From the NCBI GenBank assembly GCA_027972325.1, contig JAPMOS010000054.1, forward strand, positions 97,001 through 161,000: DNA of 64,000 nt, given 5' to 3'. The translations under genes were made by a program, and so were the position numbers. The notes below the pieces were generated by a model. The model made no database searches. It was not told where the DNA came from and saw nothing but the letters and a program-made list of their open reading frames with translations. This document shows, one piece after another, positions 16,754-57,300 of the stretch (within the stretch, counting starts at the first letter, position 1; every line of letters starts with the position of its first letter). The stretch comes from Paratrimastix pyriformis. Lineage: Eukaryota > Preaxostyla > Paratrimastigidae.

Positions 16754-17779
16754 TCAGACGAACTTCTCAAAGGGTACTGGCGGCTCCAGACGTCCCGACT
16801 CTGCGAACCGCTCCGCCCAGCCCTGCAGCCGGGCGGCAGCCGGGGGGGCAATGGCCGCCACCCGCCTGTGGAAGGGGCCGCCCGCACCCAGGGTCGCAGC
16901 CACCCGCAAGAAGTACGGCCCGTATCGCTGCAGCAGCCCATAGCCGGCAAACTACGGAGGAGACGAGGGGGTTGAGCCCCGGGGTGATGGAACGGGGGGG
17001 CGGTGGAGACCTCGAGGAAGGTCGTGCAGGAGGTGCAGAGGGCCCGGTCAATGGCCACGCCCTCGGGGGCCTCCAGTAGACTGGCGAGCCAGTGCCACCC
17101 GTGGGCCAGCCCACACGGGTGCTGTCCCTCCACTGCCCCGTAGGCCACACGGTGAGGTTGGGGGCATGGGGGGCGGCGGGGACGGACGGGCGGGGGTCTG
17201 GACGAGGGCCGCGTAGAATGCCATGCAGCCCTGCATCTTGAAGACGTAGTCGTCCTCCTCGGCATCGTTCTTCTGCCCCCCGCCAGGTCAGCCCCCCATC
17301 CGCCCCATCCGCCCCATCCGCCCACATCCCCCCGGTGAGCAGAGGGCAAGAAAGGCAGCAACACTGGCTCGGGCTGATGCAGGGAGGGCGATCGTTGGAT
17401 GATGGTGATGGGACGGCGAGTGGGTTGTGGTGGTGGGTTGTGGTGAGAGTAGTGGTGGTGGCAATGACGATGCTGAATGAATGCCGGTCGACGGTGGGGG
17501 GGCTGGGACCTGGGCCTGGTCTGCCTCGCCATCCGCCTCCTGGGCGTGCGGCACGGGGGGGCATGGCAGGATGGGCACGGTGTAGGGGCACAGGTCGTGC
17601 AGGCAGCCCACGAGGAGCTCGCCCAGGGGCGGGTGGCGCTCCATCAGGGCAACGGCCACCGCCGCCACGCTGACCGCGCTCGAGGGGTGCCGGGCGAACT
17701 GCATCAGACACTGGTCCTGTGGGGGGGGGGGGGGGGGAAGGGAACCAGGGGGTTCCAGACGCAGCAACACACCACCCGG

Positions 17780-22018: not shown

Positions 22019-23995
22019 ATGGTCAAACAAAGCAGCGAAGAGGCAAACTTTGATCCACATTACACGACTGAAATTCGTGTAACATCGAGCCAACTTACTT
22101 GGCACAATACCTGGGACCATATTCTGGCCCGATGCGCCTACAAACGGAACAGTCATCGCGTCCCCGGCGGTCTCTATAAATTGGGCGATCCTTCGTCAGC
22201 AAGCCCTGTCTTGGTTACAAGCAATTATTCCTTGACCTTCGATAAGCTGGTTCGACGCTCGCATCTTGCTTTGGTGATATGGCTCACACTCGTCGCTAGC
22301 GGGCTGCGCTCAAAGGGCACCACATTTGGCTGCTTGTACTCGATACGCTCGGTGTTAATGTGTGGTGCGCCGCGAGCAAAGGTACCATGGCCTCGATGAA
22401 TCTGATTAACGCCATCCAGGAGACCAAATTGGCCGATCGGGTCGTGCACCGGACGGTCATTGTGCCTCAGCTCTCGGCCCCTGGTCTGTCTTTTTTTTCA
22501 CATTAACTTCATTTTTCTGGCGTCTCACCAGGGATGAACCCCACCTTTGTTGCCCAGGAGACCGGCTTCCGGGTCCGGTACGGCCCCATCCGGGCTGTGG
22601 ACGTCCCCGACTACCTTGCCGCGGCCAGCAACGCCAGCCCATCCATGCGGCGCGTGCGGTTCCCCCTGCGTGATCGGCTGGTGCTGACCCCGGTGGAGAT
22701 GGTGCATGCCCTCTCGTTCACCGTCCCCATGGCCCTCGCGGGCGGCCTCATGTTCGGTCCGGATCCACAATCCCCTCCTCCCCGCCTCATTCCTGGCGCC
22801 TTTGTCGTTCATTTCCTGGTCCTCAGGGCGCCTGTGGGTGCTGGGGGCCCTCGTGGCCGAGCTGTGCGGCTGCCTGCTGGTCCCGGCCCTGCTGCCCTAC
22901 CTGCCCACCCGCAGCTACACCGCCAAGGGCTTCTTCGTCGGCGTCCCTGCGGCGGCGGCCCTCGTCAGTGCAGCCCTCCGGTCCGCAGAGGAACAGCTCG
23001 GGGCGGGCGGGCAATGGATGCGGCGGGCATCGGACCCACCACCAGAGACCGATCACGCGCCATACCCCCCCCCCCCCACACACACACACACACACGCACA
23101 CACAGCCCCATTGCTGGGCGCAAGTTCCTGCTGGGTCTGCTGGAGCTGCCCTGGTGGGGCGCGGTTGCGTCGGCTGTGCTGCTGGGCCTGGCGGTGGTCA
23201 TCCTCACGGCCTTCTTCGCCATGAACTTCTCCGTCCGTCAACATCCCCACCACCACCACCACCACCACCACCACCACGACCCACCCACGCCACCACCGCC
23301 CGCCCGCCCGCCCGTCCCTCTGGCTGGCTGCCTTCTGCTGCCCGGAACCTTCTGACGATCTCGATGTCCGGCCCACCCGTTGCAGGGCTGCACGCCGGAT
23401 GCCGCGCCGAGCGACGTCTTCCGGGAGACTCTGGTCTGGTTCACTTGGATGCCCCGCTTCGGCCCCCGCATGCGGCGCCTGGTGGCGACCAACGTCCGCA
23501 AGTCGGGCGTCCAGCTGAACACGGAGGCATGCATCGGTCTGCCACCATGGCAGGGTTGGGCGCTCATCCTCGTCCTCCCCGACAGGCTGTGGCCGCTGCA
23601 CAGAAGTCTGCCCCCACGGGGTCCGTACCACTTTGCCTCCGCTTGGGGATGTTGGACGTGGGAGTATTCTGTATTGATTTTTGTTTCGCTGGGTGATGGT
23701 GGATAGGTCTTCACGCGGGACCCCGAAACCCAGAAGATCCGGCTGGACCCTGACCGCGCCCCCTATTGCATCGAGTGTGGTCTGTCTGCGCTCCGCGCCT
23801 TGGGTTGCATCCTTGAACACGTGCGAGTCCTCACGGTCATCTTTCTCTGCCTGATTCGGATCCTCCCATCATACAGGGGCCTGCCGCTGCAACTGCCCGC
23901 AGGATGCATGCGATGTGACCCCTGGTGTGGGCTGCGCCTACGCCCTGATCTACTCCGCATTCAAAGGCCTTGATACGATCGTGTGCCCGTGCTAG
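22019..23995 (+). CDS. hgcAB: HgcA-HgcB fusion: corrinoid membrane protein joined to a 2x[4Fe-4S] ferredoxin
   Basis: Nine exons (22019-22249, 22300-22483, 22532-22756, 22827-22980, 23106-23232, 23386-23536, 23586-23620, 23707-23779, 23877-23995) sum to 1,299 nt and close in frame to 432 residues. Residues 1-150 form the HgcA corrinoid-binding domain: PGGLYKLGDPSSASPVLVTS near 49, then the cap helix GVNVWCAASKGT with the corrinoid-ligand Cys100, then VIVPQLSAPG and TGFRVRYGPIRAVDVPDYL. Residues about 180-305 are membrane helices ending AFFAMNFSG, as in HgcA. Residues about 335-432 are HgcB-like: CIGCGRCTEVCP (356-367), CIECGACRCNCP (390-401), the conserved GVGCA (Cys413) and C-terminal CPC. 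In prokaryotes the separate HgcA and HgcB transfer a methyl group to Hg(II), with HgcB supplying electrons. The role here is inferred. It starts 218 bp or more from GLE1, in divergent orientation. Confidence 0.93.
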
Positions 23996-24194: not shown

Positions 24195-24883
24195 ATGCTC
24201 ACTGCCCCCCAGATCGCTAGCTCTGCCGACTTGGTGGCGCTGTTTCAACGCCTTCAGAAGGGCGACATTTCCGTGCAACAGCACCTAGTCTCCTTCCAGC
24301 GGAGTGATCAGTGCTTTTCCATCTCTCGGGAGATCATATCAAGCCCTGACCCTTCGCTGCAAGGTTTACAGCTGTTCTGGTCTGTTCCCAACACAGGCGA
24401 TCACACATCATCGGATGCTGGCTGCGTGGTTTTTTGCAGTGCCACCGCCGCGGCGGAGTTTGTTTTCCAGAAGTGGGCACTTCTCCCTCCGCAACAGTGT
24501 CATGAGTACCGCAGTTGGATCCTGTCCTGGTTGGGCAACTCGTGGGGCAAGTACCCCCTGCCCCTCATCAAGAAAGCGGTCCGTCTTCAGACCCCGGGTC
24601 GGCCTCCTCACCCCACGCATTCCGGACAGGCTGTGATCTTGGTGGAGATGGCCAAGGTGGACTACCCCGAGCGGTACCCGGACTTCCTCAGCCACATCCA
24701 CCAGTTCCTGCAGGGGGCGGGCACCGTCTGCGTGGGGCTGATCGTGTTTGCCTCGTTCGCCGAGGAGGTGGGCCGGAACACGCCCCGCATGACGGCCCAC
24801 CGCCAGAAGCAGCTCGAGCGGCTGCTGCTGGAGGGCCCCATCGCGGGGCTGCTGAATTTCCTGGCGGGCGGCTTCGGGACGGT

Positions 24884-24925
<42 letters not shown>

Positions 24926-27900
24926 CGGCAGCGGGGGTGCGCCTGGCCTGCTGACGCAGCTCAGCGACCCCAACGCGGCCCAGCTGGTCACGCTGGGCAT
25001 CGAGGCCATCATGGTCTGCACCCCTGGCTGGCTGGCTGGCTGGCGGGCTGGCGGGCTGGCGGGCTGGCGGGTTGGCGGGCTGGCGGGCTGGCGGGCTGGC
25101 TGGCTGGCCACCGGTCGAGCCCCCCCGAGTGAACATCTCGGTGCTCTGACGGCACCCCCTCACTCCCCTTCCATCCGTCCTCATGGGCAGCGCTGCGCGG
25201 CACTGGTCCCCAACGCGCGCTCGCTGGGCTCGCTGGGCGCCGGAGCGGCGGGGGCCTTCCCCAGCGGAATCACCCCCGAGAGCAGCGCACTCCTCATCGA
25301 GGACGCCATCATCAGGTCCGCCTGACACACGGAAACGCACGGCCACAGGCACGGCCACAGGCACGGCCACAGGCACGGCCACAGGCACGGTCACAGGCAC
25401 GGTCACAGGCACGGTCACAGGCACGGTCACAGGCACGGTCACAGGCACGGTCACAGGCACGGTCACAGGCACGGTCACAGGCACGGCCACAGGCACACAG
25501 TCGCACAGGCACACAGGCGCACAGGCACACAGTCGCACAGGCACACAGTCGCACAGGCACCCGCCGTCATCCACTCCGCCTGGCAGAGCCTCATCGGCTC
25601 ACCAGCAGACAGCGTCACACCACCGTGTCGCACCGTCGTCGCACGGACACGACGCGCAGACACATTCCATCAGCACTCACCCCCCCCCCTGTCCCCCCGC
25701 ACGGCACTGTGGCCCCTGTGCAGGCCGGTGGCGCCCCTATCTGCCTGCGTGCATCCCGCGGCTGTTGGGTGTGCGGCCCTGGAGTGCCTCTGCGACGCGG
25801 CCACCCGGGCCCGCTGCGATGCAGCGGCCGTCTGGGGCCACGCCGTTGCCCTGGTCCAGTGCATGGCCGCCCAGATGTGCCCCCGGGCTCACGTCCGTCC
25901 CCCCCCCCCCCCCCGCCCAACCCACCCTCCGTCACGCCCCCATCGCCATGCCCATGCCCACAGACATCGCCATGCCCACACGTTGTGTGCTGCTTCCATC
26001 GATCGTGCGGCTCCAACCCACGGGTGTGATGCCCCCCAGGCCCATGGCCCCACCCCTCCCACTCTCGCCCCGGGGGGTCTTCATGCCTTGACCGGCGCAC
26101 GTCTGGCTGTGGGCGGTGGGCTGCGTGTGCTGTGCCGTGGGGGATGGGCGCATATGTTGGGGTGGGGGCAGCGGCGAGCGTGCCGGGGGAGTACTTCGAC
26201 CGGATGAGCTTCTTCCTGACGGCCCTCATGCGGCACCAGTTCGTCCTGGAGCCGCTCTCCTCCCAGCTGACCCTCCTCGTCCGGCTGCAGCAGCACCCCA
26301 TCGAGGGCGTCCCGGCCCCCGTCCTGACGGTCCCCCAGCAGGCCCAGATCGCCCGGGGGGCGGTGGCCTTCTCCCAGCAGGTGGCCGGCTACTTGCTGCC
26401 CCCCCTGGCGGCCATCACCAAGGCCTTCGTCTGCCGGCCCTGCCCGGCCGAGGGCCCGGCGGGCTGCCTGGAGGGCTACGGCAAGGCGCTTGAGATCTGG
26501 GCAGGGCTGATCGAGCGGCTGGCGGACAGCAAGCAGCAGTACCACACGGACGAGGAGGAGACCCAGCAGGTGCAGGCCATCGAGAACCTCAAGGCCCCCA
26601 TCACCGACCTCTGCGCCACCCTGCTGGCCCAGACCATGGCCACCTCAGCATCGACACCCGGCCAGCAGCAGCCGGCCGGCAGCGGCAGCGTGCTCCACGA
26701 GGCCATCCGGCAGACGTACCTCGAGGCCGACGAGGCCTACGCCCAGCCGGGCGGCGGCGAGGAGGCCGGGGGGGATGCCGCGACCCCCGGGGCCCAGGCG
26801 GCCGACCTGGACGAGGCCGGCCCGGCCGCCGAGCCGCTGCCAAGCTTCGGGGGGCTCATGTCCCGCCACGGCCGCGACGCGGCCAACGCCCAGACGGCCA
26901 TCGGGGGCTTCCAGTGGGACCCGCAGGTGGTGCAGACCCTGGAGCTGATCGGCCAGGCGTGCGAGGTGTACCCCGAGGCCGTGCTGGGCCTGCTCTCGGC
27001 CGGGCTGGGCTCGCTGATGGACCGGCTGGCGGGCCCGGGCAAGGCCCAGTACAGCCCCGCCGAGGCCGACGACCTGACGACGATGCTGCACCTGCTGGGC
27101 ATGCACATGTCCACCCTCTTCTACGACCTGGTCTCCATCGCCACCGACGCGGGTGTCGACCCCGGGGCGGGCGACCCCGTCCTGGCCCAGCTGCAGGCAT
27201 GCTCGGCCCCCTTCGCCATGATGGCCCAGGGCCCCGCGCCCGCCGGGCAGCACTTCACCACCGGGGCCGTGGGGGCCGCCGCCCGCAGCATGCTGGTGAC
27301 CATCTTCAGGCGGGTCATGGGGCTCCTCGGCCAGCTGGGGCCCCTGGTGGCCGGCCCGGCGGCCCCGGCCCACGTCGTACGAGTGGCCCGCACGGCCCTG
27401 GGCTGCCTCGAGGCCTACGTGCCCCTCCTCTCGAGCTACGCCGCATGGGGTCTGGCCCCATGCCCCCCACGCACTGGTCTCACAAGGGCGTCATACGGCA
27501 TCACATTGGCCATCCCGGGCGTGCCTCTCCGTCGTGCTCACCCCCCCTCCCCTCCCCCCTGGCAGCCCACAACCTGCCCGGGAGCCACCCCGAGAAGGCG
27601 GCCACGGAGGAGGGCATCAACAGCCTGCTCGCCTCGGCCATCGAGTTGGCCTGCGGCTTCGCGAGCCCCCGGGCCCCCGCCACCGCCTACCCGCCCTGCC
27701 TCCGGCGGGCCGGGGCGTCCATCATGCGGACCGTCACCCGCAACCTGCGGCCGGCCTTCCTGCTGACCCTGGCCCCGGCCCGCGCCCTCATGGCGGCCGT
27801 CACAGCCCCGCCGCCCGTCGAGCCCGGTCCGCACGCGCACGCACACGCCCCCCCCCCCCCCCCCACCTCATCGCGCGCAATCAGCATCGTCAGCAGCAGC

Positions 27901-30085: not shown

Positions 30086-33000
30086 TTATATATCATCATC
30101 GAGCGGGGGGTGCGACGGGGCTTGGGAGAGCATGCCGGCCGCCTTGCACCGGACCGCGTAGTCCAAGACGGCGTCCATCTTGGCAACCTGCCCCGGGGGG
30201 GGGAGGCGGGGAGGGAGGGAGAGGGAGGGGGGGAGAAAGCGGCATGAGCGGTTGGAGCGGCGGGGTGATGTGCTGGCTGGTTGCATGGGGGCGAGGGTGA
30301 TGGGCACATGGGGCGGCAGGAGACGGGGGTGATGGAGGCACATGGGGGGAGGGGGGGGTGATGTCGGCAGGAGACGGGGGTGACGGAGGCACATGAGGGG
30401 GGTGATGTCGGCGGGAGATGGGGGGTGATGTCGGCAGGAGATGGGGGCGAGGGTGATGTCGGGTCGGGGGGGCGGACCTCCTGCTCGGGGGTTGTTGTCT
30501 CTGCGAGGGCCTTGCGGAGGTTGGGGCTGAGCTTGAAGCAGCGCACGACGCCCTTCTCGTCGCCCACGATGAGCACCGGGAAGCGCGGGTTGAACTCGAT
30601 CTTGGTCAGCCGGTTGCCCCGCGGCACCACCCGGTGCTCGCACAGCGGCTCGGTCTTGTTCAGGGCAAGGTCGTAGACAAGAACCTGCGCCGGGGGGGAT
30701 CCAGGGCAGGGGGTGGTGGGGGTGGGGGTGGCGGCAGGGCGGAGGACAGCGGTGAGACGGGGTGGCGGGGAGAGGGTGGGGGGTTGCGCTGCCGATGGTG
30801 CGGGGCGGACTGGCGTGATGATGATGATGGCCGGGCGACCATGTGACGATTGGGTGACGGGTGACGGTGGGCATGAGGTGAGGTGGGGGCGTGAGGTGAG
30901 GTGGGGCGTGCGGTGAGGTGGGGGTGTGAGGTGGGGTGTGGGTGTGGGGCGGACCAGCCCATCGGCGGTGGCGACTGCGAAGACCGTGGACGAGTAGGGC
31001 GCCCAGGCGACGTCGCCCACGGAGGAGTTCACCTCGAAGGTGAGCATGGCCCGGGGGTTGGTGTGGTCCCACAGCCGCACCGCCCAGTCGGCACCCGCGC
31101 TGATGAAGACCCGCGGGTGGAACCGGTTCCACCGCACCGTGTACACCGACAGCTCGTGGCCCTGCGCCCGGAGGGGGGGGGGGGGGGGGGGGGGGGACAG
31201 GGTGAGCGAGATTCCGGGGAGGGCTGAGCAGGGAGCGTCTTGGTCCTTGTTTTGGGATTTCTCTGTGGCCGGGTGTGCCGGGTTCGGGCCGTGCGCCATG
31301 AGAGGATGCGGGGGCAGCGGGGCAGCGGGGCAGCAGGGGCAGCAAGGGGCAGCGGGGCAGCGGGGGACGGCAGTGTGTGTGTGGCGGACGGTGTAGGTCT
31401 GGAGGTACTGGCTGCTGTAGGCCATACATATGATGGGGGCAAGCAGGGTGTGTGCGTGTGTGTGGCGGACGGTGTAGGTCTGGAGGTACTGGCTGCTGTA
31501 TGCCTTGGAGCACTTGTGGATGAGGCCCTCCTCGGTGCCCACCAGGAAGAGGTTCTCGTCGGTGGGGTGCATGTCCAGCAGCCGCCCCCAGCCCTGCACA
31601 GCCCCGCCACCCAGACACCCAGACACCAGAAGATGAGACAGCTGCGGTGGGGTGCATGTCCATGCAGCAGCCCCCAGCCCTGCCCCCGGGCTGGCCAGCC
31701 CGAGCCATCACAAAGGCGGGCAGGCAGCCAGGCAGCCAGGCAGGTGGTGCGGTGAGGTGCCCCGCCATCACCTCAGGGACCACCGAACCCATCGGGGATG
31801 GGCACCAAGAAGGGGCAGTGACACGCTGCGGGGGGGCATGGCCATGGAAGGCTGGGAGCAGGCGAGGGCGGGGCGGGGCGGGGCGGGGCGGGGCGGGGCG
31901 GGGCGGGGCGGGGCGGGGCGGGTGCCGCCGGACCCATGGCTGCGAGGGCCTCCGACCGGCCGGCCTCAGACGGTGGCCGGGACGATGCGGGCTGCCTGCC
32001 CGACTGGGGCGGGGGCATGAGGGTCCCGGCGGGGGCCTTGGGGGTGGCCGGCACCGAGCCGCTGGGGCTGGGCAGGGGCGCCCCGCCGTCTGCCGAGGGG
32101 GTGCTGGGGCCCGTCACGGGGGCCATCGTGACGCCCTCCCGGGGCAGCCGCAGCTCGAGAATGTCCTGCAGGGCGGCCGCACAGGCAGGCAGAGGGGAGG
32201 AGGCCAGGGTCAGTGTGCGGCCCGTCCCACAGCACAGCCGCCAGACGAGCAAAGCGGAAACCCCGAACAAACTGGACGGGCAGAGACTGGCACCCATCGA
32301 CACCCATCGACACAGCTGACACACCCATCGACAGCCATCGCCACACCCATCGCCACACCCATCGCCACACCCATCGCCACACCCATCGACAGCCATCGCC
32401 ACACCCATCGACACACCCATCGACACCCATCGACAGCCATCGCCACACCCATCGACACCCATCGACACCCATCGACAGCCATCGCCACACCCATCGACAC
32501 CCATCGACAGCCATCGACAGCCATCGACAGCCATCGCCACACCCATCGCCACACCCATCGACACCCATCGACAGCCATCGCCACACCCATCGACACAGCT
32601 GACACACCCATCGACAGCCATCGACAGCCATCGCCACACCCATCGCCACACCCATCGACACCCATCGACAGCCATCGACAGCCATCGACAGCCATCGCCA
32701 CACCCATCGCCACACCCATCGACACCCATCGACAGCCATCGCCACACCCATCGACACACCCATCGACACCCATCGACAGCCATCGCCACACCCATCGCCA
32801 CACCCATCGACACCCATCGACAGCCATCGCCACACCCATCGCCACACCCATCGACACCCATCGACAGCCATCGCCACACCCATCGACACCCATCGACAGC
32901 CATCGACAGCCATCGACAGCCATCGCCACACCCATCGACACAGCTGACACACCCATCGACAGCCATCGCCACACCCATCGACACAGCTGACACACCCATC

Positions 33001-36000
33001 GACAGCCATCGACAGCCATCGCCACACCCATCGCCACACCCATCGACAGCCATCGACAGCCATCGCCACACCCATCGACACAGCTGACACACCCATCGAC
33101 AGCCATCGCCACACCCATCGCCACACCCATCGCCACCCATCGACAGCCATCGCCACACCCATCGACACCCATCGACAGCCATCGCCACACCCATCGACAC
33201 CCATCGACACCCATCGACACCCATCGACAGCCATCGCCACACCCATCGACAGCCATCGACAGCCATCGACAGCCATCGCCACACCCATCGACAGCCATCG
33301 CCACACCCATCGACACCCATCGACACCCATCGACAGCCATCGACAGCCATCGCCACACCCATCGACACCCATCGCCACACCCATCGACACACCCATCGAC
33401 ACCCATCGACAGCCATCGCCACACCCATCGACAGCCATCGCCACACCCATCGACACACCCATCGACACCCATCGACAGCCATCGCCACACCCATCGACAC
33501 ACCCATCGACACCCATCGACAGCCATCGCCACACCCATCGCCACACCCATCGACACCCATCGACAGCCATCGCCACACCCATCGACACCCATCGACAGCC
33601 ATCGACAGCCATCGACAGCCATCGCCACACCCATCGACACAGCTGACACACCCATCGACAGCCATCGCCACACCCATCGACACAGCTGACACACCCATCG
33701 ACAGCCATCGACAGCCATCGCCACACCCATCGCCACACCCATCGACAGCCATCGACAGCCATCGCCACACCCATCGACACAGCTGACACACCCATCGACA
33801 GCCATCGCCACACCCATCGCCACACCCATCGCCACCCATCGACAGCCATCGCCACACCCATCGACACCCATCGACAGCCATCGCCACACCCATCGACACC
33901 CATCGACAGCCATCGACAGCCATCGCCACACCCATCGACACCCATCGACACCCATCGACACCCATCGACAGCCATCGCCACACCCATCGACAGCCATCGA
34001 CAGCCATCGACAGCCATCGCCACACCCATCGACAGCCATCGCCACACCCATCGACACCCATCGACACCCATCGACAGCCATCGACAGCCATCGCCACACC
34101 CATCGACACCCATCGCCACACCCATCGACACACCCATCGACACCCATCGACAGCCATCGCCACACCCATCGACAGCCATCGCCACACCCATCGACACACC
34201 CATCGACACCCATCGACACACCCATCGACACCCATCGACAGCCATCGCCACACCCATCGACACCCATCGACAGCCATCGACAGCCATCGCCACACCCATC
34301 GACACCCATCGACACCCATCGACACCCATCGACAGCCATCGCCACACCCATCGACAGCCATCGACAGCCATCGACAGCCATCGCCACACCCATCGACAGC
34401 CATCGCCACACCCATCGACACCCATCGACACCCATCGACAGCCATCGACAGCCATCGCCACACCCATCGACACCCATCGCCACACCCATCGACACACCCA
34501 TCGACACCCATCGACAGCCATCGCCACACCCATCGACAGCCATCGCCACACCCATCGACACACCCATCGACACCCATCGACACACCCATCGACACCCATC
34601 GACAGCCATCGCCACACCCATCGACAGCCATCGCCACACCCATCGACACCCATCGACAGCCATCGCCACACCCATCGACACCCATCGACACCCATCGACA
34701 GCCATCGCCACACCCATCGACACCCATCGACACCCATCGACAGCCATCGCCACACCCATCGACACAGCTGACACACCCATCGACACACCCATCGACACAA
34801 CCATCGACACAGCTGACACAGAGCAGGCGGCGGACCTGGGCCTCGAGGCGGCCCTTCGACTTGGTCCAGCGGGAGACGCGCCCGTCGGATGAGATCGACA
34901 GGAAGTTCAGGTTCTTGGCGGCGTCCTCCTCCTGCCAGACCACGGCCCACACCGCGTCCGTGTGCTTGCCTGCACAGGCACAGGCACGGGCCCCACAGCC
35001 ACCACCCCCACCCGACCCATGGCCGGGAGGGAGGAAGGGACGCACGCGAGGTGAGCCCCACAGGCCAGCGGGCCGTCACGCACCCCGCGACCCGACAGCG
35101 AGGGTGTGGCGGAGTGGGGTGCGGTTGCGGGGGTGGGCGGCTGTGGGTGTGGGTGTGGCTGTGGGTATGAGCGGACCGCGCTTCTCGGTCTTCTCCCTGG
35201 CCAGGTTGGCCCGGGCCTGGACGAAGGTCCGCTCGCGGTCGGTCACGTCGAAGACCTGCACGCTGCCGTCGTAGAGCCCAAGCGCCACAAGCGTTTGCAG
35301 CTGCCCCCCAGGGTGGGGTGGGTGGGTGAGGAGGGGGGTGGGCGATGGCGGAAGAGACGTGAGGCCGCGCGGGGTGGGTGTGTGGATGTGTGGGTGTGTG
35401 GAGTGGGGTGGAGACACCCAGCGGGGGGGACGTCGGGTCCGGGGGCGGGTATTTGGATGCGTGCGTCGGCCGGGGAGGGAGGAGCAACGGGGAGCATCCA
35501 AAGCAGGGAGGCCGAAGAGAGGGGCACCAATGTCACATTCTTGCACCCGTGGGTGGCGAAGGAACCCCCTGTGACGATTTGGAAGCTGCGTGGGTGCGAG
35601 GAGGGGCCAGGGCGGACCCTGGGGTGGAACTGGAGGCAGGTCACGCCGCACTCGGCGCCCCAGATGTACTCGGGGAACGTGTGGTTCTTCAGCGAGTAGA
35701 TGGCCACCCGGCCCCTGGCGCATGAAGTCGTACGAGCCGTACGCCACCGCGAACAGATCCCGGTACCGCGGGTGCCACTGCAGCCCAGTCACCTGCGCGG
35801 CCGCACGGGAGCAAAGCAGCGCGGCGGGACGGAGATGGGGTCGGGGTCGGGGGGGGGGGGGGGGGGTCGGGGGTCGGGTGAGCCGGGGGATGACGACGGG
35901 GACGCCAGCCGGCCCCCACTCGGGGGGGCCAGACAGAGACACGTGGTCTCCCATGGACATGCAGTCACACGGGGGGGGGGGGGAGGGGAAGTGTGTGTGT

Positions 36001-36383: not shown

Positions 36384-37987
36384 GCAGCAGCAGCAGCCAC
36401 CCACAACCGCATTCCGACCATCCACCCCAACCGCCACACCAGCCGGGCGGCGCAACAGCGAAGAGTTCGACCAATGAGGATGGGCGGGGACGGGGGGATG
36501 GGCGGGGACGGGGGATGGGCGGGGACGGGGGATGGGCGGGGACGGGGATGGGCGGGGACGAGGGGATGGGCGGGGACGGGGATGGGCGGGGACGGGGGAT
36601 GGGCGAGGGGATGGGCGGGGACGGGGATGGGCGGGGACGGGGGATGGGCGGGGACGGGGGGATGGGCGGGGACGGGGATGGGCGGGACGGGGGATGGGCG
36701 GGGACGAGGGGATGGGCGGGGACGAGGGGATGGGCGGGGACGGGGGGATGGGCGGGGACGGGGGGATGGGCGGGGACGGGGGGATGGGCGGGGACGAGGG
36801 GATGGGCGGGGACGAGGGGATGGGCGGGGACGAGGGGATGGGCGGGGACGGGGGGATGGGCGGGGACGGGGGATGGGCGGGGACGAGGGGATGGGCGGGG
36901 ACGAGGGGATGGGCGGGGACGGGGGGATGGGCGGGGACGGGGGATGGGCGGGGACGAGGGGATGGGCGGGGACGAGGGGATGGGCGGGGACGAGGGGATG
37001 GGCGGGGACGGGGGGAATGGGGGAGGAATGCGGCAGGGTCGAGGGGAAGGAGCAGGCGAAGCGGACGGCGCGGGCAGCGGCGGCGGCAGCGGCGGTGGCG
37101 GCAGCGGTGGCGCTGAGGCTGAAGGTGACGCCCCCGGCCGGCTTCTTGGCCGCGGGCCGCTGCCAGGGGACCAGCCAGAGGAGGATGAGCACGAGGAGGA
37201 GGATGAGCACGAGGAGGAAGCAGAGGAAGAGCCCGAACACAACAGAACCAAAAACCCCCATCGCCTCCCCCATGATGGGCCGTAGGGCACGGGGCAGGAG
37301 GGGTGCAGGGGGGGACCTTGGCCTTGGACTCGCGGGCCTGCCGCTGGCGCTCCTGGTCGTCGAGGTAGCTGTCGAAGATGTCCCACTGGGTCACCGTGTA
37401 CGAGAACTCCCGCCGCTCGGGCGGCTCGGTGAAGATCAGCCGGTCCTGCGGATATCCCCCATCCCCCAAAACCGGTGAGGTGGCGATCACCGGGGGACCA
37501 CCCACCCACCCAGGGGAGGAGGATTGTTCCCCCCGACCTTGGGCGCGTTGTTGATGGACTGGGTGCCCCGCTCGCTGAAGTTGAACTGGTTCCGGAGGGG
37601 CCCCAGCATCGAGGCGGCAGCGGCTGTGGCCGGGGTGGCAGCCGCGGCGTCCATCGGGCCCGTCCCGGCATCGGTCCCGGCACTGGTGGCTGTGGGCGCT
37701 GGGCCCGCCTCAGGGCCGGCGGCAACAGAGGCCGTTGGGGGCCGGTCGCGGGACATGACCCGACTGCAGCGTGAACGGGTGAGATCGGCAAGAAAAGAAC
37801 GAGGCGAGAGCGACCTGTCCATGGTGAAGTGAACGAATGTGTGATCGATGCTTGCTTCGGCTTTGAATGTTTTATCTTTATAGGAGTACCGCACAATGTT
37901 TTGGGGAGCATCGGGATTGTTGGCATTGAGCAGCTTCGTAATTTCAGTTTGGAGTTGTTCCTCGGTCAGAGTTGGCTTTGGCGGCAT
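30086..37987 (-). CDS. DNAI1: axonemal dynein intermediate chain, DNAI1/IC1-like
   Basis: WD-repeat intermediate chain of outer-arm axonemal dynein, docking the motor on the doublet microtubule. It starts at the ATG ending at 37987 (MPPKPTLTEEQLQTEITKLL). Exons in order: FSYTVTQWDIFDSYLDDQ (37319-37450); YEFADDFKYWEDPSDQFK and LMPLWEFQ (36045-36285); YRDLFAVAYGSYDFM and YSLKNHTFPEY (about 35640-35793); ALGLYDGSVQVFDV (about 35175-35300); AVVWQEEDAAKNLNFLSISS (34836-34973); LFLVGTEEGLIHKCSKAYSS (31470-31593); GADWAVRLWDHTNPRAMLTF and GDVAWAPYSSTVFAVATADG (30951-31170); VLIVGDEKGVVRCFKLSPNL (30478-30690). The tail ends SHPPLDDDI at a TAA at 30086. Family matches are close throughout. A 1-nt frame break sits in one WD exon near 35715. 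Introns are unusually large because of minisatellites. It implies a motile flagellum. Confidence 0.9.
31376..31504 (-). repeat. direct duplication of an exon/intron edge in DNAI1
   Basis: About 48 bp (gtgtgtgtggcggacggtgt and the following ggtactggctgctgta) occur at about 31376-31423 and again at about 31457-31504. The right copy is the true end of the exon encoding AYSSQYLQTYT; the left copy lies in the following intron. Confidence 0.85.
31867..31922 (+). repeat. GGGGC pentanucleotide repeat
   Basis: About 11 tandem GGGGC units, a strong G-quadruplex-forming tract on the plus strand. It lies in an intron or exon edge of the minus-strand dynein gene. Confidence 0.95.
32291..34818 (+). repeat. 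2.5-kb CCCATCGACA/GCCATCGCCA minisatellite inside a DNAI1 intron
   Basis: About 200 units built from the core CCATCG, with spacers of the types CCACACC, ACACC, ACAG and ACACACC, in a mixed, non-random order. The rarer marker CACAGCTGACACAC recurs near 32298, 32596, 32940, 32985, 33078, 33640, 33683, 33779, 34764 and 34811. It lies between exons ending about 34836 and beginning about 32166. Because units are mostly multiples of three, frames of up to 1,173 codons run through it; these are artefacts. Confidence 0.97.
36331..36398 (+). repeat. CAG/CAA trinucleotide tract in a DNAI1 intron
   Basis: About 22 CAG/CAA units, in an intron of the minus-strand dynein gene, so it is CTG/TTG in the transcript and not translated. 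Confidence 0.9.
36476..37017 (+). repeat. 17-18-bp minisatellite (GGATGGGCGGGGACGGG) in a DNAI1 intron
   Basis: About 30 copies, alternating GGGGACGGGG and GGGGACGAGG variants. G-rich on the plus strand with G-quadruplex potential. Confidence 0.95.
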
Positions 37988-48350: not shown

Positions 48351-51300
48351 TTAGAGGAGCTCCTCCAGGACGACCTGCATGATCTGCCTGCCCACCTCTT
48401 GGCAGAGGTTCTCGCAACGCGAGCCCAGGTTCATCACTCGGGTGGGCGGCTTCCCGGCCGCGGCGAGATACTCGTTGCAGCGGGAGATCATCATGTCGGT
48501 GGACGAATTGATCTTGACGAGCATAAAGGTGACGTTCTTGCCCGCCAGTCCGGCCATCAACTGCGACATGCGGTACGGGGACTTCCCCACTTCGTTATCC
48601 CCACTGCAATTGTGCAGGGTGGTCCCAGGCTCGTTGTGGCAAGGTGCGTCGGCCACCAAGATGACGAAGCGGCCCTGCCCTTGCCAGTCCATGTTGAGGG
48701 CCGCGTGCAGGGCACCCTGAACGTCCTCCGGCTCGTCACCGCCGCCACTGGCTGACTGGGCGGCAACCTTGCCAATGACCGCATCGATGGCAGTCGTCAA
48801 GGCGATGGGGTCCAACCTCCGAACCCCATCACAAAAGTCGCGGTATGCCACAAAGGCCATCCGCAGATCGGCCGTCCGCCCGCCGCCCTGTTCGCGCACC
48901 TGTCGGCAAATATCGTCTGCCATGGCCTTGATCTGCCGCTTGCCAGCCTCGATCCAGGATGACATACTGCCTGTGGATCGGAGGAGTGGCGTGAGGCGCA
49001 CGAAAAAAAGAGGGACAGACCAGTGCAATCCATCAAGAAGACGACGTCAAGCGAAAGAGCCGGGGCAGGGCCAGCTGCGACAACGAGGCGCCCTTGGAGC
49101 AGTTGGTCGGCCTTCCTCAGCTGGGCGAAGAAGGTTTGGTTTTTGGTGGCATCGAAGACCTCGTCCACGGTGGTCAGACGTCGCGGGGGCGCCTCAGGAT
49201 GGGCGGGATCGCGATACGTGACCAACTCTGTGAGAACGTTCTCGGGGAGCACCGACATGCTCTCGGGGCTCTCCCGCCGTGCGCGCCCCTCCCACAGGGC
49301 GCGGATGGCCTCGCCCAGGAAAGCAGGCGTGTCCATGCAGACGTAGTGCTCGAAGGCCGACACGACCCCGTTGGCCTCGCGCGCCGCTCCGATGCCCATC
49401 ACATAGATGCCCTCTTCCGTGGCGGCTTGCAGCGAGCGCAGCAGCCGGGCCCCGCGCGAGTCGAACCCGTCGGTGAGGACGAACATCAACATGGGGCCCC
49501 GGGCGTTGCGGGTGCTGTGGTTGAGGAGCATCTCGGCCGCGTAGTCGACCCCGTCGCTAATGAAGGAGGCCCGGCCGTCGGGGCGGCGGCTCATCATGTT
49601 CAACAGGGTGTGCTGCACCTGGGGGGTCATCCCCTCGGCGTCCGATTTGATCAGCGAGGCCTGTTCGCCGACACCCACCACCCAGAAGTTTTCCAGCTGC
49701 ACGCGGGCCAGGGCGGCACAGATGCTGAAGAGGGCGTCGTAGGTGGCCATGGCCGTGGTGCCCTCCATCGACTGGGACGTGTCCACGACGATGGCCACCC
49801 GGTAGACGCGCCGCAGGGCCCCCGTGATGGCCTCGAAGATCTTGGTCTCCTGCCCGTGGGTGCAAAAGAAGCGGATCAGGCCCGCCATGCACAAACGCGA
49901 CCCACGCGTCTCGGGCCTGGCCTGGGTGGCCTGGTTGGGCCCAAAGAGGGCATCCTCGAAGCAGGCCGTGAGGTCAGCAATGATCGATTCACACTCGCGC
50001 TCCATCCGGGTCCAGAGCAAGCGGCTCTGCTCGAGCAAGGGCGCGTGACCGATGGCCAGCTCCTCCAGACGGGCCTGGAGGGCGGCCAGGGTCTGCTCGA
50101 TCTCTTGTTTTCGGCGCTGTACGAGGGCCGGGTCGGGGGCGACAGAGACCGCAGCCGGGGCGGTGCCGATCCCGGGAACGCTGCAAATCCACTTGGGGCT
50201 GCGCACCTGGGCGGATGGGAAGTGGACGTGCCCAGAAGGCGCGACGAACCGTTCCTCGGTGCAAACGAGGGGACACAGGGGTTGCTGGGTCGGGGCACGC
50301 CCGCTCCCGGCCCCAGCGGCTTGGGCCGAGGACAGAAGTGCCTTGAACCGGTCCAACAGCAGGCGGCTGAGGATGGTGGGCAGGTCGTTGAGAGCCGCGG
50401 TGCTGGCTTGCACGCAAGCATATTGGCCAGGGCAGATGACATCGAACAAAGTGCGTGCGAAGGCCTCGTGGGCGGTGGACTCGACCAGCACCAGAGGGAC
50501 AAGTTCGATGGTGCTGTCGGAACCCGCAGTGCGGGCGGCTCGGTACTGGGCGGGATCCTGCTGCCCGAACATGGCGTCGGTGATCAAGACGATCATTCTG
50601 GGATGGAGAGGACGAAGGATGACAGGGATGATCACATATGCGACAGGCACCGGGGAGGAGGAGGAGGAGGAGGAGGAGGAGGAGGAGGAGGAGGAGGAGG
50701 AGGAGGAGGAGGAGGAGGAGGAGGAGGAGGAGGAGGAGGAGGAGGAGGAGGAGGAGGAGGAGGAGGAGGAGGAGGAGGAGGAGGAGGAGGAGGAGGAGGA
50801 GGAGGAGGAGGAGGAGGAGGAGGAGGAGGAGGAGGAGGAGGAGGAGGAGGAGGAGGAGGAGGAGGAGGAGGAGGAGGAGGAGGAGGAGGAGGAGGAGGAG
50901 GAGGAGGAGGAGGAGGAGGAGGAGGGAAGAAGAAGACGGACCTATGGATATGGCGGTCGGCTGGACGACCACCGAAGACGTCGGGGTTTGTGGTGCAATA
51001 CCGGATGGCATCCACAGGGAGGGTGCCCTTGGGGGCCTGCTGGAAGGACTCCAGGATCCTCTGCCCCAGGGCTGTGGTCATCTCCAAATCCAGGGTCTTC
51101 AGGCAGGTCTGCACCTTGGCATGGCCGAAGGCAACCACCCCGAAGCGATATTCGACCCGGCGGAGGGCCTCCATCATGACCACCAGGGCCGTCTGGGCGG
51201 CGGGCATCTTGGTCAACATGGAGCCCGAGTCGTCTGGGATGAAGAGGGTGTGAGGGCTCCAATGACAAGGTGGGTGGGCGGCGAGCAGACCAACAGCAAA

Positions 51301-54300
51301 AACGATCTCGAATTGATGGCGCTCGTCGATGCCCTTGGCGTAGTACTCTTGGAGGACGTGCTGGCGCAGCATGGAGAGGAAGAAGCACTGGTGGACGTAG
51401 GTGGCCCGGGCCAGGAGTTCGTAGCGGGACTGCGACACGAGCACCTTGGGATCATCCACCTCGCCGCTTCGCATGTTGACATCGGAGACGCTCTGCTCGC
51501 GCAGGCTGTCCCGCATCTGCTCGAAGGTCTTCCTCATGGCGCGGCGGGCCTCGGGGGGCAGGTCCTTGATGGCCACCAAGGCCACTTCGCCTGGTGCGGC
51601 GCCCTTCCCACCCTTGGCTCTGGGGTGCGCCTCATCCCCGAAGCGCACCTGAAGCTTGGAGCTGGAGTGGATACTGGCCCTCGTGGTACCGTGCGCTGCG
51701 TCAACTCGGATTGATGGTCCACCTTTGACGTCGCCCATGACAGCGCCATCATCAGGCTCTGTGCCCGTCACCAGGTCGGCGCGGCTCAGATCGAGCTCCC
51801 CCCAGAAATCCCGAACCTGCGGGGCGACCGCCGCAGGGGGCAACAGGAGGTCCGAGGCCGAGGGTGGGGGCAGGGCCTCCCCCGTGTTGGTGCGGCTCTC
51901 GGCAGACTCGACGCTCTGGAGGAGCCCATGGAGGGAGATCTCGTTGTGGCCCTGCTCGTGCCACTCCCTGGTTCTGTATTCGTCGAAGGAGAGGATCGCG
52001 TCGTGCGGCCTCCTCTGGGCCTCGGGTGCTGGGCTACCGTCTGGCGGGATCTCGAACCGCTCAGATTGCGGCACTGACGTCACAGCCCCAACTTCAGTGA
52101 GGAGGGCACGCAATGCGGTCCCCTCGCGCCCCTCGGGCAGTGGGAGGGAGCGCAGCAGCTCCACCAGCTGGCTTCTCATTCGTGTAACGACCTCCTGCAG
52201 GGTGGACAGGGGCGGGTTGGGGGCCATGAGGGCCCCGACGAAGGTGAGCCCACGGATGGCCCCCGCAAGTACTTGGAGCAGCGTCTGCGCTTGCGGGGCG
52301 AAGTCGGGGCCCAGTGGGGTGGCACTGTTATTGATGACAGCCACCACACGGAAGCACCGCAGCAGCCCATCCGCAGCGGTGCGGCCGGCCCGGTAGGCAC
52401 GCAGCAAAGAGTCGAACGGAACCAAAGCGGGGTTGAGAAGCGACCGTTTGGGAGCCTGCTCGCGATAGGCGGTGGTCAGCTCGGTGCGAAGAGAGATTTC
52501 AGCCTTCTTGGCTTCGCTGAGTTGCTGTTCGAATTCAGCGAGGAGTCCCTCGCGGTCCACCTTTGGCGCCCCTGGTGGGCGTTCGGGTGGCAGACGGCGG
52601 GCTTTCACCTGAGCAGCTTCAGGTGCAGCAGCCACATGCGCCGACGCAGCAGCAACTGCGGCGGCACCTGCGACGGCAGCAGCAGTGGCGGGGCCGGCCG
52701 GGTCACACGCACGAGCGTGATGAGGCTGGTTGAGGAGTAATCCCGTCAATGGCAGCAGCTGGAGGGGCGTGGGGTCTGGCAGGCGACGCTCAACAGTCTC
52801 AGCCGCAGCCACGGGTGGCTCTTTGGAGGTCAGGAGGCGGAAGATCCTGGCGGACACGACAACCCCCATGAAGGCACGGCACAGCGGCCGCTTGCATGTG
52901 ATCAGACGGGAAAGATCACGGGTGAGGCCGCTCAGCAGGTCGATGGAGTGACCCGGCTCGAGGACGCCGAGCTGGGCGAGGGCCTCTTCGAATGCCTCTG
53001 GCGGTCGAGGGGGCTCCGCAGTCAACAGCTCGCAGGCGGCCTTGCTGAGGGAGGTGCAGCACTGACAGGCACGATCGAAGCGGCACAGATCCTCAGAAAG
53101 ACCGCCTGCAGACCCGCCTGACCGAACCAGGGCAGCGAGACAGCGGAGGACCTCGGCCATCGAAGGTCGCTCTGGGCGGGCAAGGAGGGCAAGGAGGTTG
53201 GACAACGTGTCGTCGTCAGCCAAGAGGGGCTGCAAAGCCTCCACAAGCTCCTTGGCCCGCTCGAAGAAACGCTCGGCCGTGTTGGCCTGGCCGCAGATGG
53301 CCTCCGCAAAGCCGATGGTGCCATCCAAGGCGGCACGCGCTGTGGGAGCGGGCTCGGAGAGGAACGGCTGGATGGCCGCAAGAATGGGTCGACCGCACAG
53401 AGGGCGGGCTGCGAGCGCCTGCAGAAGGCCCTCCCACTTGGCGGCCTCCTCGTGACGCCAGGTATCGGGCTTGGAGCAAGCCTTTCCGAAGTGGAGGAGG
53501 GCGAGAAGGCCGGCTTGAGATGAAGGTGCTTGCAAAAGCATCTTGAACGCGTGGAGGGCCGGGGAGTCGCCCGGATGATGCCGTGCACCAGCCGCGAATT
53601 GATCGACCAAAGAGACGGCTCCTTCGAAGAGGTCCAGCCCGGATGATATGCGGGAAGAGTACGGGTCCGGGTAGAGGAGGCCCAGGATTCGGCCGAGACT
53701 CGTAGCGATCTGGGCCACCCACTCGGGGAGTCCAGGGTCCACCAACTGGAGAAGGCGGCAGAACGAAACCACAACAGTGGACGTGGAGCTTCCGAAGACA
53801 ACCTGCTCAAGCAAGGCCGAGTACGTCTCGGGAAGAGTTGGTCCAGGGAACCCCGAGGCCGGGTTGAAGACCGATTCCGGAGAATCCGGAGGAAAAATGG
53901 CATGTCTGGATCGCGCTCGCCGGAACCCCTGCTCAATAACTTTGGCAGCCGCAGCGCAGGAAGGGCAAACAGCAGTGAAGAAAGTGGCAAGTTGTCCGAC
54001 AATCGATTGGCCGAAGGGCCTCTGGGCAGCCAAGCCACAGAGCGCCTGACAAGCGGGACTGCCGCAAAGACGGAGGGGTAACAAAAAGCAAGCCACAAGG
54101 CTGTCTGCGCTGAAAGCCTGCAACTTTGTTCGGTGGATGAAGGCGAGTATGTCGCAGAGTGCCTTTTGCTGTGCAGCGTTGTCAAAGAGAGCCGGCGCCA
54201 GAGTCCCCCGGGTGAAACCCTCCAGCTCGGCAGGGATGATGATCTCCCGACTGCCCAGAAGAGCAACAGTCTGCTTGACCGGGGCCGCGACCGAGTCGGG

Positions 54301-57300
54301 GAGGGCACAGAGAGCCAAAGAGACAAATGACACGACGTTGGGCTGCAAGGCGTGCTGAGTGAAGCAAGCAAGAGCCTGGCCCAGCGGGGCATCTTGCTTG
54401 GGCAAGAAGGGGAGGAGGGCCGCAACAAGCGCGCTGGATTCATCCATGCTTCGAGGGGGCCATTCTGCCGGGGCTGCAAGAGCGGAGGCCAGAGACCGGA
54501 AAAGAGGCAGACAGGCAGGCGGATGAGAGTTATAGAGAGCCTCCACACAGGACCAGGGACCACTCTTGGCGAGAAGGCACTGGGCAAGGCCGCGCAGAGC
54601 GGCGGGAGCTCCATTAAAGCTCGCGATGCAATGCAGGAGGGTTGCGAAAGAAGGTGCCCCGACCAGGGTCCGTGTGGCAAGCCGGAAGGCCTCCGCGCTG
54701 TCGGAAGGCGCACTCCGGCCGAGGAGGTTCTCCAAGAGGGCTACCACGCACTGGAGGACGACCTTCCAGTCGTGGCGTGCAGCCACGTGAAGTGCGGCCA
54801 TCAAAGCGCTGAGGAGGAAGTGTTCCAGCGATCCTGACTCAACTGCCGCCCCGAGAGTAACTAAGATGTTGAACACGGGCGAATCAGCAGGAGGGATCGT
54901 GCTGAGATGATGGGGAGCGAGGGCAGCGAAGATGCGTTCAATGGGATTGCTTTCGGGATCAGGGGTCCCGAATGACAAGATCGCGTCGTTGCAGATGACA
55001 TCATCATTTCGAACGAGGCCTGCAAAGAGCAGCAAGAGAGGAGCCGTCAGTGGCACGGCGCCAGCATCCATGCGGGTCCACAGATCGTCTGTGAGAGTGC
55101 GGGGAACAAGTAGAGAAGGAACTTCGTCCACCAGGGTCGATGGCCAAACAACCGGCTTCAAGGCCACAAGGCGAGTCGTGATGGTTCCGCAAATGACCAC
55201 GGGAATAGTGCCCAGGAACTCATCAGACTCCCCAAAGAGCTGGATCAGATAGACCACCGTGAAAGGCCCCGGTTTCTGTGTTTTGTTGTCGGTGACAGGG
55301 AGCTGCACTTGTCTTGAGACATCCGGGTCCAGCCGGACTCTTGGCTGTCCGTCAAACGTGGCGCTGAGCGGGTTCACGAGGAGCATGATCTGGAACGAGC
55401 CGGGCCGAGTCCCTTTGTTTCGGATGTTGATGGTCTGGTTGTACGCGGAGTTGTCCATGGGATCCGACTGCGTACAGGGGGCGGTGAGTGCGGGCGACAC
55501 CATCCAAAAAAAACAGACCTGCGATGAGAGAAAGCCGAGGCAAGTCGCAGTGGGAAAGACAGTGATCATGGGGGCATCTTTCAGAAGGCGGAGGGTCAGC
55601 GGGAATGGCGACATCCTCGCATTGCTGTAGATGAGCAGCTTGGGGCTGGTCTCGAAGGATGTGGGACTCGCCTTGTACGCAAGGCGCAGAGTGGCATCCG
55701 AGCGACGGCCGACCACCAGAGGCATTGGGGTGGCCACGCTCACATTGCCCGCCGGGTTGATCAGGTCGACTCGGGTCACAATGAGCGCCGTGACACCCGA
55801 GTTCTGGACGGTCAGCTCGATGCTCCCAGTGTTTTCACGGAACCTCAGCGGCTGGAGAGGCTGACGAACCATGATCGAAGGCTCGCCACAGAATCCCGAG
55901 AGGTGTGCCTGGAAGTCCCGCAAGCTTCCATTGGCGGCAGGGGCAGAGATTCGGAGGCCAAAAACGTAGTCATGGACGGCCCGGATGGACAAGCACACAT
56001 GATGTTCGCTGTGAGGAGCGATAAACAACTGCTGTGGCGTGACTGTGGCCAATCCTGGATTGGTCACAGAAAGCGAGGCGTTTAAGTCCATCTATAAGGT
56101 CGGTTGTGTGAGTGGGAAAGCAATGGGCAACGAGACCTCTCCCTGGTTCGAGATGATGAGAGTGTGCTCGACGGTGTCGTTCGGTCGCATATCGGGCAGA
56201 TTGATCTGCTGGCCCGCTTCCAGAAGAACCGCTTCGGCCGCGCCGGGGAATAAAAGGGATGCCGAATAGACGCAGCATCGCACATCGCCCATGGCCTGCA
56301 TCACACGGACCACACCAGGTTGAAAGAAGAACTGGAAGCCCGCCCGAGCGGGCCCGGGTTCACAGCCCGGCCTCCACACAGTCCGAAAGTTGGCCTCACC
56401 GTGGGCTTCAATCTCGGCGGTTTGGGGCTCCAGGGAAAACTGGCCCGAACTCCCCGCCATGCGACGAGTCTGCACCAAGAGGCGCTTCGAAGTGGGGTTG
56501 CGCAGCGCGAAAGAGCGTTCAATCGAAGGGACCTGGGGCAATGAAAAACCAAAGTCGACCGACGGCAGCCCCTCCTCGACATGTGGAAGGGCCGAGGGGC
56601 GCTGCGGCAACGCAAAATTGGCCTCAAATTGTTCATGATAGCCCTTGAGCATCAAGGGAAGTTGCCGGTCGTCGATGATGAGGGCAGTGGAGTGCTTGTG
56701 CTCACCAATGGCGGCTCCTTTGGCAGGGAGGAACTCGCAGGTGAGCGTGACTGATGCGGCTGGCCGGACTGTCCCGTGGACAGGATGGATTTTGAAGGAC
56801 ACTGCATGTGGATCGCGGACTTGGAATTGGATGATCCGGGAAGTCCGATTGGAAAGCTACAAGGGCAACAACAAGAATTCACAAAGGAGTTGCGCAGAAC
56901 AGACCTCAACGTTGTGGGTGCGGGCAGGCCACCCTTGGAGGCAATTCTCCATGCATATTTCGATCTGTTTCACGGAGAACCGAGCATCTTTATCGCCGGG
57001 CAGGACGCTGACGACCGAGAGCAATGGGGCTCGCGCACCCGAGACAATTTGAAGCGCATGCGTGCCCAAATTGAGAGTGGCGCCGCCCAAAGCACTCGCG
57101 AGGGTCGAAAGGCGAGCCAGGTTTTCGGACTGGCTGCCACACTCTTGCTGGACGCGCGCAATCAATCGTCTCCGGCACTCTGGGAGAGAAGTAGTATTGG
57201 TGGTCACGATTTCGGCGGCAGCTCGTAAGACCGAGCGGAGCTGGACAGGAGTCAGGGCGCCGAACAGGGAGAGCAAAAGGAGGTTTGACTGAAGGGCGTC

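Follow-up and report, generated by a model that had tools for sequence, protein, structure and literature searches.

The question raised by this locus is whether a eukaryote carries and expresses, as one polypeptide, the two proteins of microbial mercury methylation, and whether it could use them for that chemistry. Microbial methylmercury has been ascribed to bacteria and archaea that possess hgcAB (PMC7305189). In the account given in PMC11588087, HgcAB methylates cobalamin with SAM and not with methyl-THF; the conserved cysteine of HgcA ligates cobalt, and the two clusters of HgcB supply electrons. Full activity requires Cys93 of HgcA, Cys73 of HgcB and at least one C-terminal cysteine (PMC7305189). 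The host considered here is Paratrimastix pyriformis (Preaxostyla, Metamonada), a free-living anaerobic flagellate. A gene at 22019-23995 on the plus strand of a 64-kb stretch of its DNA, the whole of which is termed the window, was originally predicted to encode HgcA and HgcB as a single, intron-interrupted fusion.

Structure and Expression of the Fusion Gene

Joining nine exons yielded 1299 nt, equivalent to 432 codons and a stop, with a reading frame that is unbroken throughout. All exons lie on the plus strand. Exon 1 (22019-22249) starts at the first ATG downstream of an in-frame stop; it encodes the N terminus and the start of the corrinoid-binding domain and aligns with the N-terminal region of HgcA. 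Exon 2 (22300-22483) continues this domain and contains the cap helix NVWCAASKGT, with Cys100 equivalent to Cys93 of ND132 HgcA; the CdhD/PF03599 match also falls here. The end of the corrinoid domain, Met177 and membrane helix 1 are encoded by exon 3 (22532-22756), helix 2 and most of helix 3 by exon 4 (22827-22980), and helix 4 with the HgcA signature FFAMNFS by exon 5 (23106-23232). Exon 6 (23386-23536) contains the fusion point, which does not coincide with an intron and falls between the HgcA stretch that precedes TM5 and the start of the ferredoxin. Exon 7 (23586-23620) encodes most of the first cluster motif, CIGCGRCTEVCP, the opening of which is contributed by the end of exon 6. Exon 8 (23707-23779) continues the ferredoxin into the start of the second cluster motif, CIECGACRCNCP, the remainder of which is found in exon 9 (23877-23995) together with GVGC (equivalent to HgcB Cys73), the C-terminal CPC and the stop codon TAG. 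Each motif named in the original prediction (NVWCAASKGT with Cys100, AMNFSG, both cluster motifs, GVGCA and the final CPC) was found in the joined protein.

The eight introns all have GT...AG boundaries, with lengths of 50, 48, 70, 125, 153, 49, 86 and 97 bp for introns 1-8, respectively. Seven of the eight donors read GTCYG, a sequence found at 159 of the 2856 GT dinucleotides in the window (5.6%); the corresponding binomial p value of 1.3e-8 is to be read with the knowledge that the motif was picked after inspection of these same donors. By eye, GTCYG was also seen at several apparent intron starts of the adjoining exportin gene, and an intron of the MTHFR gene elsewhere in the P. pyriformis genome starts with GTCTGTC, as do introns 2 and 8 of the fusion gene.

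Expression is evident from a EukProt protein of 256 residues, GAFH01002284.1.p1, the best of 295 database matches, which is identical to residues 177-432 (256/256). The GAFH01 set is a 454 mRNA assembly of Trimastix (Paratrimastix) pyriformis (PMC3596361). The transcript protein spans six of the eight exon junctions (introns 3-8) and joins the HgcA membrane domain to the ferredoxin without a break; these six junctions and the fusion are thereby confirmed. The predicted structure of nine exons, eight introns and 432 codons, with HgcA and HgcB in one polypeptide encoded by an intron-bearing gene, is upheld. The ORF of the transcript protein is labelled complete and begins at Met177, so that the corrinoid domain and the first two introns are predicted from homology and splice signals. 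The gene is thus nuclear and spliced, with a transcript-derived protein for residues 177-432. When the P. pyriformis assembly (56.06 Mb, 495 contigs) was searched, no second copy was seen; the three matches obtained were exons of this same locus.

Genomic Context

The neighbouring genes are eukaryotic, as predicted. Upstream, a GLE1 exon lies on the minus strand at 17567-17713 (contig positions 114567-114713, an offset of 97000), with a PF07817 match of 35.6 bits against a cut-off of 24. Downstream, the first exon of an exportin-like gene occupies 24195-25013 on the plus strand, its end having been set by eye, and matches PF08389 (Xpo1) at 27.4 bits against a cut-off of 22.7. GC3 was 0.79 for the fusion gene and 0.81 for this exportin exon. 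Elsewhere in the window, a 2.5-kb tandem array of about 234 copies of the 10-base unit CACCCATCGA (32291-34810) coincides with strong GC and AT skew, and a second array contains 31 copies of an 18-base unit with 93% matches (36478-37021). A perfect 272-base GGA repeat (50654-50925; 90.7 copies, 100% match) lies within a long minus-strand open frame (50632-56091). The only Rfam match in the window at the gathering threshold was a tRNA gene on the minus strand (2286-2367; 59.6 bits).

The published P. pyriformis genome (56.6 Mb, 60.94% GC, 633 scaffolds) derives from a polyxenic culture and required decontamination (PMC10703272), a circumstance that favors reading the locus as an assembly chimera or as bacterial contamination. 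Against this stand the eight introns with donors of a host-like motif, the mRNA-derived protein that is identical across six junctions, and the GLE1 and exportin genes that flank the fusion gene with similar GC3. Contamination was rejected on these grounds, as the original prediction had argued from introns and neighbors; this reading is already close to refuted, and its probability can be regarded as negligible.

HgcA and HgcB-type Domains

The NCBIfam model for HgcA (NF040863) matched residues 20-324 at 307.9 bits (E = 7.6e-92), above its curated cut-off of 275. Together with the identity of the transcript protein, this match excludes a chance origin of the gene model. The cap helix conforms to the pattern N[VI]WCAA, with Cys100 at the position of the cobalt-ligating cysteine, and the membrane domain ends in NF[ST]G, as in prokaryotic HgcA. 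In the C-terminal part, both CxxCxxCxxxCP motifs of HgcB are present, as are the equivalent of HgcB Cys73 and the C-terminal cysteines; counterparts of the mutationally important cysteines of prokaryotic HgcAB are therefore all retained. The HgcB model (NF040864) aligned with residues 348-427 at 78.3 bits, below its curated cut-off of 99, and hence the term HgcB-type domain is used.

By contrast with prokaryotic HgcA and HgcB, the eukaryotic protein is one chain encoded across eight introns, it has no hydrophobic TM5, it misses the HgcB cut-off and it departs from HgcA at positions that are otherwise near-invariant. Of 66 such positions, 57 are kept and nine differ; among 199 prokaryotic rows, the highest number of differences was 5 and the median 1. 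The changes include Gly103Ser, Phe107Met and Glu111Asn, which are located within or just past the cap helix.

A more distant likeness is to the large subunit of CFeSP from the acetyl-CoA pathway (2h9a, 4c1n, 4djd), which has a homologous corrinoid domain (E of about 1e-5 to 1e-4) and, to our knowledge, no membrane domain of the HgcA type. It is described in PMC7305189 as being without the cap-helix cysteine.

Relationship to Prokaryotic Proteins and Origin of the Fusion

Related loci numbered 531 in a scan of 84,980 prokaryotic species genomes; the 80 analyzed were the best in a ranking that used the HgcA row P0005, and not the eukaryotic protein, as its reference. No fused HgcA was found among these 80, and no HgcA frame there carried cluster motifs; likewise, the two cluster motifs occurred in none of the HgcA matches P0002-P0120 (within the best 120 of the 295 database matches). 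A separate hgcB lay close downstream of hgcA in 72 of the 80 loci, with a median of 47 nt between the hgcA stop and the first HgcB cysteine motif. The pattern used to find hgcB included GVGC; seven loci had no hgcB in the stretch examined, and the motif in one other (L068) was spurious.

Four trees placed the eukaryotic row differently. In a 102-row tree, from which 31 of the 80 loci (mostly methanogens) were left out, a branch of support 99 set the eukaryotic row on the HgcA side, at a point where long branches meet; its own branch was very long in this and in a 61-row tree. A free tree of the corrinoid domain (66 rows) placed it inside HgcA beside P0005 with a modest support of 74/86, and a quick 66-row tree grouped it with five fused rows at a weak support of 71, not starred. 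An AU test of the corrinoid domain (66 rows) did not reject a clade with the fused rows (p = 0.511). By identity or path, the nearest rows were HgcA of mixed affiliation, from Armatimonadota, Chloroflexota and methanogens. Given that the four trees disagree on neighbors without firm support, no donor lineage is named.

Fused HgcAB-like proteins are already known in prokaryotes (PMC7573106, PMC7438021). They form the family NF043039, paralogues that root HgcAB trees in the mercury literature, and the eukaryotic protein might be a member or a descendant of it. The domain order within one polypeptide is alike, the NF043039 model aligns with residues 41-404, and the quick tree and the AU test are compatible with such descent. 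The alignment score of 271.1 bits, however, is under the curated cut-off of 285, and the two trees that place the protein with HgcA point the other way, the 102-row tree subject to its long branches. Against 60 HgcA rows, the mean identity of the corrinoid domain was 54%, and against five fused rows it was 42%, the latter being the same as that between other HgcA and the fused rows (42%). For the membrane domain, the corresponding values were 38% and 21%, with 20% between HgcA and the fused rows. The ferredoxin was up to 48% (mean 42%) identical to HgcB and 22-31% identical to six fused rows, and GVGC was present in all 32 HgcB matches listed in the ferredoxin search but in none of those six. 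Descent from the known fused proteins was accordingly judged unlikely, and we assign it a small probability; the shared single chain stands, and the relationship is refined in that, by identity, the protein is no nearer to the fused family than other HgcA are. The fused rows come from the six of 10 fused loci that gave a protein by pattern, the other four being unused. One of them, L105, which was omitted from both 66-row trees, has a ferredoxin half with a cysteine-rich tail, GVCSC, unlike the other five, and may be an intermediate form.

Judged by identity and motifs, both halves of the eukaryotic protein resemble separate HgcA and HgcB more than the fused HgcAB-like proteins. Given this, and given that the HgcA of the best 80 of 531 prokaryotic loci are unfused, the gene would be explained most simply by an independent fusion of a methylating-type hgcA-hgcB pair.

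Absence of the Fifth Membrane Helix

The 47-residue linker that follows NFSG and leads to the first cysteine of the ferredoxin has a best 19-residue hydropathy (KD19) of 0.16. By comparison, KD19 was at least 1.4 in 71 of the 73 measurable tails of prokaryotic HgcA (median 2.27) from the best 80 of 531 loci, seven of which were without the motif; the two lower tails, in L033 and L077, have ends that are unrelated or short. The hydrophobic fifth membrane helix is thus absent from the eukaryotic protein, which does not have the five-helix membrane domain of HgcA; the original prediction had made no mention of this loss. A plain hydropathy count gave four segments, although this rough method returned one to five in nine prokaryotic HgcA. 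An AlphaFold2 model of GAFH01002284.1.p1 (mean pLDDT 73, pTM 0.50) contained four long helices, two short linker helices of low confidence and then the ferredoxin.

If the N-terminal corrinoid domain is inside, a chain with four helices also ends inside, whereas five would place a fused ferredoxin outside. Loss of TM5 would therefore leave the ferredoxin on the corrinoid (cytosolic) side, and we infer that this loss made the fusion workable. In a published model, HgcB contacts TM4 and TM5 of HgcA (PMC7305189).

Occurrence in Eukaryotes

The transcript protein was the sole eukaryotic protein among the best 120 of the 295 whole-database matches. A search with residues 335-432 against fused-length proteins of the whole database returned one match among eight candidates, again the P. 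pyriformis transcript protein, and none of the 32 matches listed for the ferredoxin alone against short proteins was marked as eukaryotic. These whole-database searches need shared 5-residue words and could miss distant or broken copies. The prediction of a lineage of eukaryotes with this gene therefore holds for one species, P. pyriformis, no other eukaryote being among the matches listed.

Among the open-licence PMC papers listed for HgcA or mercury in connection with eukaryotes, protists or Paratrimastix, no report of a eukaryotic HgcA was found, nor any paper that treats Paratrimastix together with mercury. A word search of the main text of PMC10703272 gave no occurrence of "mercur," "hgc" or "cobalamin," and in PMC7573106 and PMC7438021 "eukaryot" is confined to the reference lists. 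The novelty would thus lie in the occurrence of the proteins of known HgcAB chemistry in a eukaryote, as a single chain without TM5.

Predicted Function and Alternatives

A route to the present gene can be proposed in which a bacterium or archaeon was the lateral source of an hgcA-hgcB pair, the genes of which abut in prokaryotes. Fusion of the pair would then have removed the hydrophobic core of TM5 along with the intervening stop and start codons, and would have kept the ferredoxin on the cytosolic face beside the corrinoid. The two [4Fe-4S] clusters would reduce cobalamin to Co(I), SAM would methylate the cobalamin, with Cys100 as the predicted cobalt ligand, and the recipient of the methyl group would be Hg(II) bound by the cysteines of GVGC and CPC. 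Natively, the protein may serve to handle thiol-bound metals under anoxia, with methylmercury as a product.

Host metabolism appears compatible with this scheme. The B12 domains of a B12-dependent methionine synthase (MetH) were found on genome contig C146, MTHFR is encoded in the same genome, and MetH, the folate and methionine cycles and the SUF Fe-S pathway have been described in P. pyriformis (PMC10703272). On this basis, the host should have access to B12, SAM and anaerobic Fe-S chemistry. A weak second B12-binding match, of 26.3 bits against a cut-off of 32.1, was seen in an 828-residue open frame (contig C35, 562361-562690).

Mercury methylation by the eukaryotic HgcA-HgcB protein is plausible. 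That a laterally acquired hgcA-hgcB pair was fused, spliced, expressed and kept, and would be able to move a methyl group from SAM through cobalamin to Hg(II), is on balance the probable explanation of the locus. The fuller proposition, in which the eukaryote itself would methylate mercury by means of a laterally acquired, single-chain, four-helix HgcAB that works at the cytosolic side of a membrane and draws on SAM from the host and on scavenged B12, we hold to be evenly poised. Counting against the probable explanation are the nine residue changes, the missing TM5, the HgcB score below its cut-off and the start of the transcript ORF at Met177, past the corrinoid domain; the first two make loss or change of activity a serious rival. 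The protein could be a true descendant of HgcA and HgcB with a new job, be it corrinoid methyl transfer to a different acceptor, redox work or metal binding, and with little or no mercury methylation. The very long branch adds to the case for such a change, as does the fact that the physiological role of prokaryotic HgcAB is itself unsettled. Retention of Cys100, GVGC, the C-terminal CPC and both cluster motifs, together with an HgcA score above the curated cut-off, speaks against it, and a changed job is considered possible yet rather unlikely. A further alternative is a decaying pseudogene of which transcription persists, and the unusually divergent conserved sites and the short transcript ORF could be read in this way. 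The 432-codon frame, however, is open over nine exons, and the key cysteines are kept despite great divergence, so that decay is very improbable. That the frame has stayed open and that 57 of 66 near-invariant residues have been retained over long divergence suggests that selection has acted on the fusion gene.

If the methylating interpretation is correct, the candidate sources of methylmercury would, with a spliced HgcAB in a eukaryote, come to include anaerobic protists; these feed on bacteria and pass directly into food webs. Surveys that use unspliced hgcA gene models could overlook a gene split by introns. The single-chain form without TM5 represents a simplified natural version in which the working of HgcAB and its native role may be studied, and the idea that a eukaryote forms methylmercury can now be put to a direct test.
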